A stretch of 44,545 nucleotides of DNA. Source: Gammaproteobacteria bacterium. GTDB taxonomy: Bacteria; Pseudomonadota; Gammaproteobacteria; UBA4575. Position 1 is the stretch's first letter. Every line of letters starts with the position of its first letter. Shown here piece after piece: positions 37,905-40,856 of this stretch. The stretch is taken from contig JAQWYM010000004.1 of assembly GCA_029253965.1 (NCBI GenBank), positions 1-44,545 of the forward strand, in the 5' to 3' direction. The notes under the pieces were generated by a model. That model saw only the letters and a program-made list of their open reading frames with translations, had not been told where the DNA came from and made no database searches. The position numbers were made by a program, and so were the translations under genes.

Positions 37905-39167
37905 GTGTCTCAGTTTCCTGAATTTGAATATCGACAGCAGCAGCTGATGATCGAAGACTCTGCCATTAAAGATCTGGCAGATGAATTTGGTACGCCGCTA
38001 TATATCTACTCAAAAAAAGCGTTACAGCAACGCTGGCAAGAGCTGCAAAATGCCTTTTCTGCGACATCATTTTTGCCATGCTTTGCGGTCAAGGCAAACT
38101 CAAACCTTGCCATCTTACAATTGCTCGCATCATGGGGAGCAGGCTTTGATATTGTCTCAATTGGTGAACTTGAGCGCGTGCTGAAAGCCGGGGGTGATGC
38201 CTCGAAAGTAATGTTTTCTGGTGTCGCAAAACGCGAGGACGAAATTCGTCGAGCAATACTTGCTGGCATAGGCTGCATCAATGTCGAGTCGGCTTATGAG
38301 CTGCAACAAATCAGAACGATTGCTGCAGAATTACAGATGCAGGCACGGGTTTCATTGCGCATTAATCCTGATGTTGATCCCAACACCCATCCTTATATTT
38401 CGACGGGTCTAAAAGAAAGTAAATTCGGTATAGCGGTTGATCGAGCCTTACCACTGTACTTGGAGCTGCGTGATGATGCGTGGGTGCAAGCGGTAGGTGT
38501 TGATTGTCATATCGGTTCACAGATCATTGAGAAAGAGCCATTCTTGGATGCAGCCTCGCATGTCTTTGCCTTGGTTGCGGAATTAGAAAAGGCTGGCATA
38601 AGGTTGAAACATATTGATCTGGGGGGTGGCTTTGGGATTTGCTACGACGATGAGCAGGCGCCACCTTTCAGTGATTACGCTGAAGCGATACAACCCTTCT
38701 TTGACGGCACCGACTATCAGTTGGTGTTAGAGCCAGGCCGATCAATCGTGGCTAATGCTGGTGCATTAATCACTCAGGTTGAACATATCAAGCCGACTGA
38801 GTCGACAACCTTTGCTTTGATTGATGCCGCAATGAACGATTTGATTCGTCCGGCCTTATATAAGGGTTGGCATAAATTGTTAGCAGTGACCGAGCAGCCG
38901 CAGCGTGCGCATAAAACCTATGATGTGGTTGGGCCGGTCTGTGAGAGTGGCGACTTTTTTGCTAAAGGACGTGAAATGTCAGAACTGATGCCGGGTGATT
39001 TATTGGCGGTTATGTCTGCGGGTGCTTATGCTATGAGCATGGCGAGTAACTACAACTCACGCCAACGCCCCTGTGAATTATTGGTCGATGGTGATCAGGT
39101 GCATATGATTCGTAAGCGAGATAGCCTTGAGCAGTTGTGGGAAAACGAGATTAAGTTAGACCTCTAG
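37905..39167 (+). CDS. lysA: diaminopimelate decarboxylase
   Basis: A PLP enzyme that decarboxylates meso-diaminopimelate to lysine. The PLP Lys is in PCFAVKANSNLAIL near residue 60. HIGSQIIEKEPF near residue 202 and DLGGGFGICYDDEQAPP near 243 are the barrel's phosphate-binding parts. EPGRSIVANAG near 285 and GPVCESGDFFAKGREM near 345 complete the dimer active site. It has 420 residues. The start is a GTG at 37905 with AGGA 6 bases upstream. It stands upstream of dapF, the enzyme that makes its substrate. Confidence 0.96.
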   Translation: MSQFPEFEYRQQQLMIEDSAIKDLADEFGTPLYIYSKKALQQRWQELQNAFSATSFLPCFAVKANSNLAILQLLASWGAGFDIVSIGELERVLKAGGDASKVMFSGVAKREDEIRRAILAGIGCINVESAYELQQIRTIAAELQMQARVSLRINPDVDPNTHPYISTGLKESKFGIAVDRALPLYLELRDDAWVQAVGVDCHIGSQIIEKEPFLDAASHVFALVAELEKAGIRLKHIDLGGGFGICYDDEQAPPFSDYAEAIQPFFDGTDYQLVLEPGRSIVANAGALITQVEHIKPTESTTFALIDAAMNDLIRPALYKGWHKLLAVTEQPQRAHKTYDVVGPVCESGDFFAKGREMSELMPGDLLAVMSAGAYAMSMASNYNSRQRPCELLVDGDQVHMIRKRDSLEQLWENEIKLDL

Positions 39168-39297: not shown

Positions 39298-40128
39298 ATG
39301 AAGATCGATTTTGTAAAGATGCATGGCCTTGGCAATGACTTTGTCATGCTGGATGCGACACGCAATAAATTTAATCTCAGTAAGAAACAGATTATTGCTT
39401 TAGCACATCGCCATACAGGTGTTGGTTTTGACCAGCTACTCATTGTTGAGCCTGCAGCTAATGCTGAAGTAGATTTTTCCTATCGCATTTTTAATAGTGA
39501 TGGTAATGAGGTTGAGCAATGTGGGAATGGTGCTCGTTGTTTTGCGCAGTTTGTTCGTAAGATAGGACTAACAGATAAGCGTGAAATTAAAGTGCAAACA
39601 CTGGCGGCGATCATGCACTTAAAAGTATTGAATGAGACTGATGTCGAAGTTGATATGGGTAAGGCCGTATTTACGCCTGCGGAAATCCCTTTTCTCACAA
39701 AAGAAACTAAAGCGCCCTATCATCTCAAGTTGAACCGTACTGATGTCGAGTTTGAAGTGGTGAATATCGGCAATCCGCATGCCGTAATATTTGTAGATGA
39801 TGTCGACGCAGTCGATATTCAATCGATTGGTGCAGAGTTAGAAATTCATCCTGCATTTCCGAAACGTTGTAATGTGCAATTTGTGCAGGTTATGGCGCGT
39901 GATCAGATTAAGCAGCGTATCTTTGAACGCGGTGCAGGTGAGACAATGGCCAGCGGTTCTGGTGCCTGTGCAGGTGCTGCCGCTGCCATGCACACTGGGC
40001 AGGTTGCTAATCAGTTGCGCGTGAGTATGCCTGGTGGTGAGTTGAGTCTGAGTTTTGATTTACAGACAGAGCATATTTTACTGACAGGGCCGACTGCCTT
40101 TAGCTTCTATGGGAGTGTAGAGTTATGA
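39298..40128 (+). CDS. dapF: diaminopimelate epimerase (second catalytic Cys replaced by Ser)
   Basis: Interconverts LL-diaminopimelate and meso-diaminopimelate for lysine and peptidoglycan. The fold is clearly DapF: MKIDFVKMHGLGNDFVMLD at the start, GFDQLL, and EQCGNGARCFA with the first catalytic Cys75. NIGNPHAVIFVDD and ERGAGETMASGSGACAG follow. In characterised DapF the last motif is ACGSGAC, and its first Cys (217 in Haemophilus) is the second acid/base residue. Here the codon at 39952-39954 is AGC, so the residue is Ser219. Otherwise length (276) and motifs are normal. Activity, altered specificity or a sequencing error cannot be separated here. It overlaps the next gene by ATGA. Confidence 0.93.
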   Translation: MKIDFVKMHGLGNDFVMLDATRNKFNLSKKQIIALAHRHTGVGFDQLLIVEPAANAEVDFSYRIFNSDGNEVEQCGNGARCFAQFVRKIGLTDKREIKVQTLAAIMHLKVLNETDVEVDMGKAVFTPAEIPFLTKETKAPYHLKLNRTDVEFEVVNIGNPHAVIFVDDVDAVDIQSIGAELEIHPAFPKRCNVQFVQVMARDQIKQRIFERGAGETMASGSGACAGAAAAMHTGQVANQLRVSMPGGELSLSFDLQTEHILLTGPTAFSFYGSVEL

Positions 40129-40856
40129 CAAAAGATATTGATGCTGATGAAGTTGTGCTGGCTGAAGAAAACACGCAGCAAAAAAACCCAGTAATACTGG
40201 ATGCAAAAGCCGTTGTAGACTATCTGCAACAGACACCTGATTTCTTTGAGCAACACGCGGCCTTATTGAGTGATATGAAACTCCAGCACAGCGCAGGGGG
40301 TGCGATTTCATTGATTGAGCGGCAGGTTGCTGTGCTCAGAGAAAAAAACCAAGCGCTGGAAAGTAATATTTTACAACTAGTGCAAATTGCACAAGATAAT
40401 GAGATCTTGCAAGAGCAGCTACATCGTATCGCACAGCGAATGATTGAGGCAGAGAATAATAATAATATTTTTGCCGTGGTCGCAGATTTATTAAGTAATG
40501 AGTTTCCAGTTTTAGAAGTAGGCCTGCGTCTAACCGCGATTGATGAGCAGTGGGCATTACCAGCAGAGCAATTGGTGACTGAGGCAGAACTAGAGCAAGC
40601 GGTATTGCGTAGAATATTTGTCGATAATGAGCGTGAGTGTCAGTTCCTTATGAATGACGATTTGAATACCTTCTTTCCCCAACATTTAAATGTACGCTCG
40701 GGTGTTGCAATACCTCTGCGAGCCAATCAAAATTTCGGTGTGCTTTTATTAGCGAGCACCAATGATGAACGTTTTCGTGAGGGCATGGGCACTTTATTCT
40801 TAGATAACTTGGCTGATTTACTTGGGCGTAAGTTTAAAAAAATGCTAAAAGACTAA
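40125..40856 (+). CDS. DUF484 family protein (GAF-like)
   Basis: A 243-residue soluble protein. The N-terminal part (AVVDYLQQTPDFFEQHAALL near residues 29-48, then SLIERQVAVLREKNQALESN) is the hallmark of DUF484 and leads through a coiled coil into a GAF-like domain (about 105-235) with SGVAIPLRANQNFGVLLLAS. The function is unknown. The gene sits between dapF and xerC in most gammaproteobacteria. It overlaps dapF by four bases, so translation is coupled. Confidence 0.9.
   Translation: MTKDIDADEVVLAEENTQQKNPVILDAKAVVDYLQQTPDFFEQHAALLSDMKLQHSAGGAISLIERQVAVLREKNQALESNILQLVQIAQDNEILQEQLHRIAQRMIEAENNNNIFAVVADLLSNEFPVLEVGLRLTAIDEQWALPAEQLVTEAELEQAVLRRIFVDNERECQFLMNDDLNTFFPQHLNVRSGVAIPLRANQNFGVLLLASTNDERFREGMGTLFLDNLADLLGRKFKKMLKD

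Follow-up and report, generated by a model that had tools for sequence, protein, structure and literature searches.

Diaminopimelate epimerase (DapF), an antibacterial target, is the textbook example of an epimerase that works with two cysteines and no cofactor, and covalent aziridine inhibitors attack its catalytic cysteines. In the Anabaena enzyme, L,L-aziridino-DAP alkylates Cys75 and D,L-aziridino-DAP alkylates Cys224, and the DapF of H. influenzae and Arabidopsis show the same pattern (PMC12039745). From this alkylation pattern, it is the first cysteine that deprotonates LL-DAP, and the second serves as the acid when the enzyme runs in the direction of biosynthesis. That loss of a catalytic cysteine cripples such enzymes, as the earlier note on this DNA had held, is supported by work on relatives: PddB C233S keeps under 0.1% of its activity, serine in place of either cysteine having a like effect (PMC8225329), the activity of HisR C209S is greatly reduced (PMC11602996), and a similar loss in Cys-to-Ser forms of M. 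tuberculosis DapF is cited in PMC8225329. Since these engineered Cys-to-Ser racemases of the DapF fold are nearly dead, a natural DapF with serine at this place calls for an explanation, by compensation or by tolerated slowness.

Nature does offer enzymes that pair one cysteine with a hydroxyl. EcL-DER and MMP0739 are natural cofactor-independent Cys/Thr racemases of a different fold family from DapF, and their substrates differ from DAP. In the aspartate/glutamate racemase EcL-DER, Thr takes the place of one Cys; the enzyme is active, and its conversion of L-Asp into D-Asp is irreversible (PMC8142540). Within the proline racemase superfamily, trans-3-hydroxyproline dehydratase has a DapF-like fold and a natural Cys-to-hydroxyl change (Cys/Thr), but catalyses an elimination.

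The dapF gene described here likewise combines one cysteine with a hydroxyl, in this case serine. It lies in a stretch of 44,545 nucleotides (hereafter the window) from a gammaproteobacterium of the GTDB order UBA4575, which is said to include methylotrophs of North Sea blooms (PMC8371827). The features discussed below are the following:

37905..39167 (+), lysA, diaminopimelate decarboxylase, directly upstream of dapF; TIGR01048, 525 bits
39298..40128 (+), dapF, diaminopimelate epimerase, 276 aa; the sole DapF of the window's genome
39520..39522 (+), codon 75 of dapF, TGT, the intact first catalytic Cys; by homology the base that acts on LL-DAP
39877..39885 (+), codons 194-196, Gln-Phe-Val (family Gly-Phe-Met); 194 and 196 are markers of the Ser clade; strand 192-200 in the model
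39913..39921 (+), codons 206-208, Gln-Arg-Ile (family Leu-Arg-Val); strand 203-210 in the model, leading to the substrate-binding Glu210-Arg211
39952..39954 (+), codon 219, AGC, Ser replacing the second catalytic Cys (Cys217 of H. influenzae)
40125..40856 (+), DUF484-family gene (NCBIfam PRK10963), downstream, overlapping the dapF stop

Serine at the second catalytic position of DapF

In a profile search the window protein matched the DapF model TIGR00652 at full length (residues 3-273, 284.9 bits against a cut-off of 114.65) and contained two PF01678 domains, while its score with the bifunctional DapF/glutamate racemase model NF038284 was 96.9 bits, below the cut-off of 350. When aligned with H. 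influenzae DapF, residues 4-272 paired with residues 2-270 of the chain, two stretches of equal length, and residue 219 fell on Cys217. The region around residue 219 reads FERGAGETMASGSGACAG, with Ser where GET.ACG[ST]GACA has the second catalytic cysteine. The first is conserved in 97/97 aligned DapF, within the motif ..QCGNGARC in 8/8 members of the clade that carries serine (the Ser clade); position 219 is Ser in these eight and Cys in the 89/89 others. The earlier observation on this gene, namely an AGC serine codon for the second catalytic Cys beside an intact Cys75, was thus confirmed in every detail.

An AlphaFold2 model of the window DapF, built from a 40-sequence alignment (pLDDT 94), shows the two-domain DapF fold, with C75 at the N-end of helix 76-88 and S219 at that of helix 220-232. 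The closest PDB folds are all DapF. To the canonical enzymes of E. coli (4ijz), H. influenzae (1gqz) and P. aeruginosa (8qzy) the TM score is about 0.9 at 44-47% identity, whereas trans-3-hydroxyproline dehydratase gives a weaker match (TM about 0.7, identity 11-12%). The window protein has the family model, the first Cys and the listed DAP contacts in common with canonical gammaproteobacterial DapF, but differs from it in having Ser for the second Cys, together with G194Q, M196V, L206Q and V208I. The H. influenzae C217S mutant (2q9j), also among the closest folds, has serine at the same place as Ser219; that mutant, however, is a laboratory product engineered from a Cys/Cys parent, whereas the serine of the window is natural, old and conserved.

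Distribution and history of the serine form

The order-level genome search yielded 19 genomes of one GTDB family, in six genera (g1-g6). All eight DapF genes of genera g1, g3 and g5 encode Ser, by AGC or AGT (ERG.GETMASGSGACA), while all ten of the sister genera g2, g4 and g6 encode Cys, as do all 79 further relatives in the genome collection at the equivalent residue. The earlier note had held that Cys in all relatives would point to a sequencing error or a private mutation; relatives in three genera have Ser instead. Among public records, the closest relative is MAG UBA4575 (DGKH01000015.1), whose DapF is 85% identical to that of the window and also has Ser, codon AGT. Across 369 Gammaproteobacteria, matches to the codon pattern of the Ser form were confined to the window's family; the working sensitivity of this class scan, taken from the exact pattern in its Cys-or-Ser version, was 50/67 Gammaproteobacteria. 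Run over 249 Pseudomonadota, a set that includes these 67, the Cys-or-Ser pattern gave 61 matches, of which 60 read TGY and one, that of the window, AGC. The scans covered Pseudomonadota only and, among the serine codons, the class scan covered AGY. A natural Ser form of DapF was not found in the open-access titles and abstracts searched, and may nonetheless be reported. Two MAG records titled Klebsiella pneumoniae (L047 and L075) have a DapF just 41-42% identical to that of the window, and the DapF of L047 groups with that of the gammaproteobacterial MAG L076 (SH-aLRT 99); given this identity and grouping, both record titles look wrong.

When column 219 was masked, the DapF tree united the Ser genes in one branch (SH-aLRT 99), corresponding to one change of state. 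A MurE tree of the same genomes separated g1, g3 and g5 from g2 and g6 (SH-aLRT 100), matching DapF. Since the two branches agree, there was a single old change, which has persisted while three genera diverged, and the simplest reading of the sequences is one TGY-to-AGY change in their common ancestor followed by vertical descent. The branches of the MurE tree are long and all its members come from the family, whose own placement it therefore cannot show. A foreign origin of the Ser form was rejected, as the family's Ser and Cys genera stay together in the DapF tree; the rows from beyond the family form one side of a branch whose support is only 81.

The dN/dS ratio was 0.081 to 0.129 for pairs of Ser genes and 0.064 to 0.086 for pairs of the Cys sisters. 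With ratios this low and near those of the sisters, the DapF of the Ser clade is under purifying selection, and relaxed selection on it was ruled out. Genus g1 stands somewhat apart: it alone has Ala for the near-invariant Gly104 (VQTLAAIM, residues 99-106 in the window) and Ala for Pro123, and its stem in the DapF tree is long (0.83), from which we conclude that g1 has evolved fast on top of the serine change.

Substrate contacts, marker residues and the route to meso-DAP

The DAP contacts N13, Q46, N66, C75, G76, N77, N159, N192, E210, R211 and G220 are identical in 8/8 of the Ser clade. Of these, N13, Q46 and E210 are contacts in H. influenzae DapF. Most of the contacts checked are named for the Anabaena enzyme (PMC12039745).

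At columns that are otherwise conserved, the Ser clade carries G194Q, M196V, L206Q and V208I, with Gln at 206 in 8/8 and Ile at 208 in 7/8. All four fall in the hairpin 192-200/203-210, which belongs to the domain of S219, contains N192 and runs on to E210 and R211. Counted over both domains, the changes of the Ser clade at conserved columns are 9/57 in the C-terminal domain vs 3/56 elsewhere (p 0.12), or 12 and 4 when the sister clade is left out of the background, while those of the Cys sister clade run the opposite way, 2 and 9. Comparing one clade with the other gives a p of 0.006, which, since this post hoc test was made after inspection of the data, is a pointer only. The sequences only suggest that Q194, V196, Q206 and I208 may be compensating residues for Ser219.

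As to the need for the enzyme, dapD and dapE of the succinylase DAP route occur in 19/19 genomes, and MurE has DNPR, the motif of the MurE that adds meso-DAP, in all 18 genomes whose motif region was read. LysA, encoded next to DapF, decarboxylates meso-DAP. The earlier note had suggested that the cell might compensate through a second dapF, or through ddh or dapL, and none of these bypasses held up. DapF is single-copy in 18/18 genomes with a match, including the single-contig assemblies G011 and G013, both of the Ser type, and the profile search found no second dapF in the window's assembly. Ddh, the classical bypass to meso-DAP, did not exceed the cut-off of TIGR01921 in any of the 19 genomes, a search in which the window's assembly is only 83% complete and G011 and G013 are single-contig and 99-100% complete; G013 gave one partial match of 26 bits. 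DapL, for its part, yields LL-DAP, the substrate that DapF must still epimerise, and so is no bypass at all. The best match to TIGR03540 in the window's genome (447 bits, cut-off 593) lies beside a homoserine dehydrogenase gene, and in view of its score and this neighbour it is probably an AlaA/AlaC-type aminotransferase.

The gene order lysA-dapF-DUF484-xerC is conserved in relatives, DUF484 being the usual name of the downstream gene at the dapF locus. In genera g2-g5 a small gene stands between lysA and dapF (L085, L086, L087, L090, L095-L099), which in L086 (about 2363-2788, -) encodes a CoA_binding_2 (PF13380) protein. The lysA-dapF interval of the window is a gap of 130 bases without this gene.

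A putative Cys/Ser epimerase and the rival readings

Among the possibilities raised in the earlier note, an active Cys/hydroxyl variant fits the evidence best. We consider it probable, at roughly 0.6, that the window's DapF is a fixed, clade-specific Cys/Ser epimerase that would still make meso-DAP from LL-DAP, an activity predicted from sequence comparison and the modelled site. Such an enzyme would supply MurE and LysA. Cys75, as thiolate, would abstract the alpha proton of LL-DAP from the start of its helix, and Ser219, at the start of the other, would reprotonate the opposite face, either directly or via a held water. The clade has retained the base, the first Cys, and altered the acid, the second. 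As a general base a serine hydroxyl is ill suited to taking up an alpha proton, but it may protonate a strongly basic carbanion; we infer from this the role of Ser219 as acid.

A Cys/Ser DapF is probably slower than the Cys/Cys enzymes, and perhaps works one way: the return step would use serine as its base, which is much weaker than a thiolate in that role, so that the forward direction would be favoured. The further idea of a natural one-way DAP epimerase, which would turn LL-DAP into meso-DAP and hardly back and be maintained clade-wide with the second-shell changes Q194 and Q206, is tentative and rather doubtful. There are two ways out of the difficulty that the engineered mutants pose: a slow rate may suffice, or changes elsewhere in the active site may have adapted it to serine. 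For M. tuberculosis DapF a kcat of 0.1465 per s is reported (PMC8142540). At this rate about 1,600 DapF copies would be needed, a rough estimate that assumes 20 million lysines per cell and one doubling a day, both general values.

It is unlikely, in our judgement, that the protein is instead dead or nearly dead and kept for another role such as RppH activation, with the wall taking LL-DAP and lysine coming from elsewhere. The near-inactivity of the Ser mutants of relatives (PMC8225329, PMC11602996) and the E. coli RppH-DapF complex in the PDB (6d13) speak for this, as do the sacculi of E. coli dapF mutants, which have fewer crosslinks (PMC8741058) and whose examination implies that the mutants are viable. 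Yet a dead enzyme would have no need to retain C75 plus every substrate contact, as 8/8 of the clade do, and lysA adjoins dapF, every part of the DAP route that was checked is present and MurE keeps the meso-DAP motif.

Decidedly unlikely, too, is a DapF that has taken up a new substrate or reaction, another racemisation or an elimination, while an unrecognised enzyme makes meso-DAP. There are precedents, since among the proline racemase relatives an epimerase became a dehydratase when a Cys changed to Thr (PMC8142540) and the DapF-fold enzymes HisR (PMC11602996) and PddB (PMC8225329) act on other substrates. Against them stand the unchanged distal DAP contacts N66, N159, N192, E210 and R211, the canonical position of dapF, flanked by lysA and DUF484-xerC, and the lack of any other DapF-family gene as a replacement; for an elimination, moreover, DAP has no beta leaving group.

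We give very little credence to Cys224 as the acid in place of Ser219. It lies on the same helix, five residues further along, but this is one and a half helical turns away, so that a large rearrangement would be needed to reach the site, and because it is invariant in Ser and Cys forms alike across the whole set it is no replacement for the second Cys. A compensating new cysteine was likewise rejected, as no Cys position was gained in common by the Ser clade in the alignment of its eight DapF.

Least credible of all is a sequencing or assembly error or one strain's private mutation, for although AGC and TGC differ by one base and the window's assembly is fragmented (88 contigs, 83% complete), this origin of Ser219 is refuted by eight independent genomes of three genera with two serine codons, AGC and AGT, two of them single-contig assemblies at 99-100% completeness.

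If the Cys/Ser epimerase is as we propose, a D,L-aziridine inhibitor is predicted to form no adduct at the position of residue 219. The Cys/Ser DapF would then be a natural test of how protons are moved in this family, of whether the acid and base roles can be separated, and of a one-way racemase. That a marine clade lives with a Cys/Ser enzyme as its sole DapF suggests that in nature the enzyme does not depend absolutely on a second thiol.
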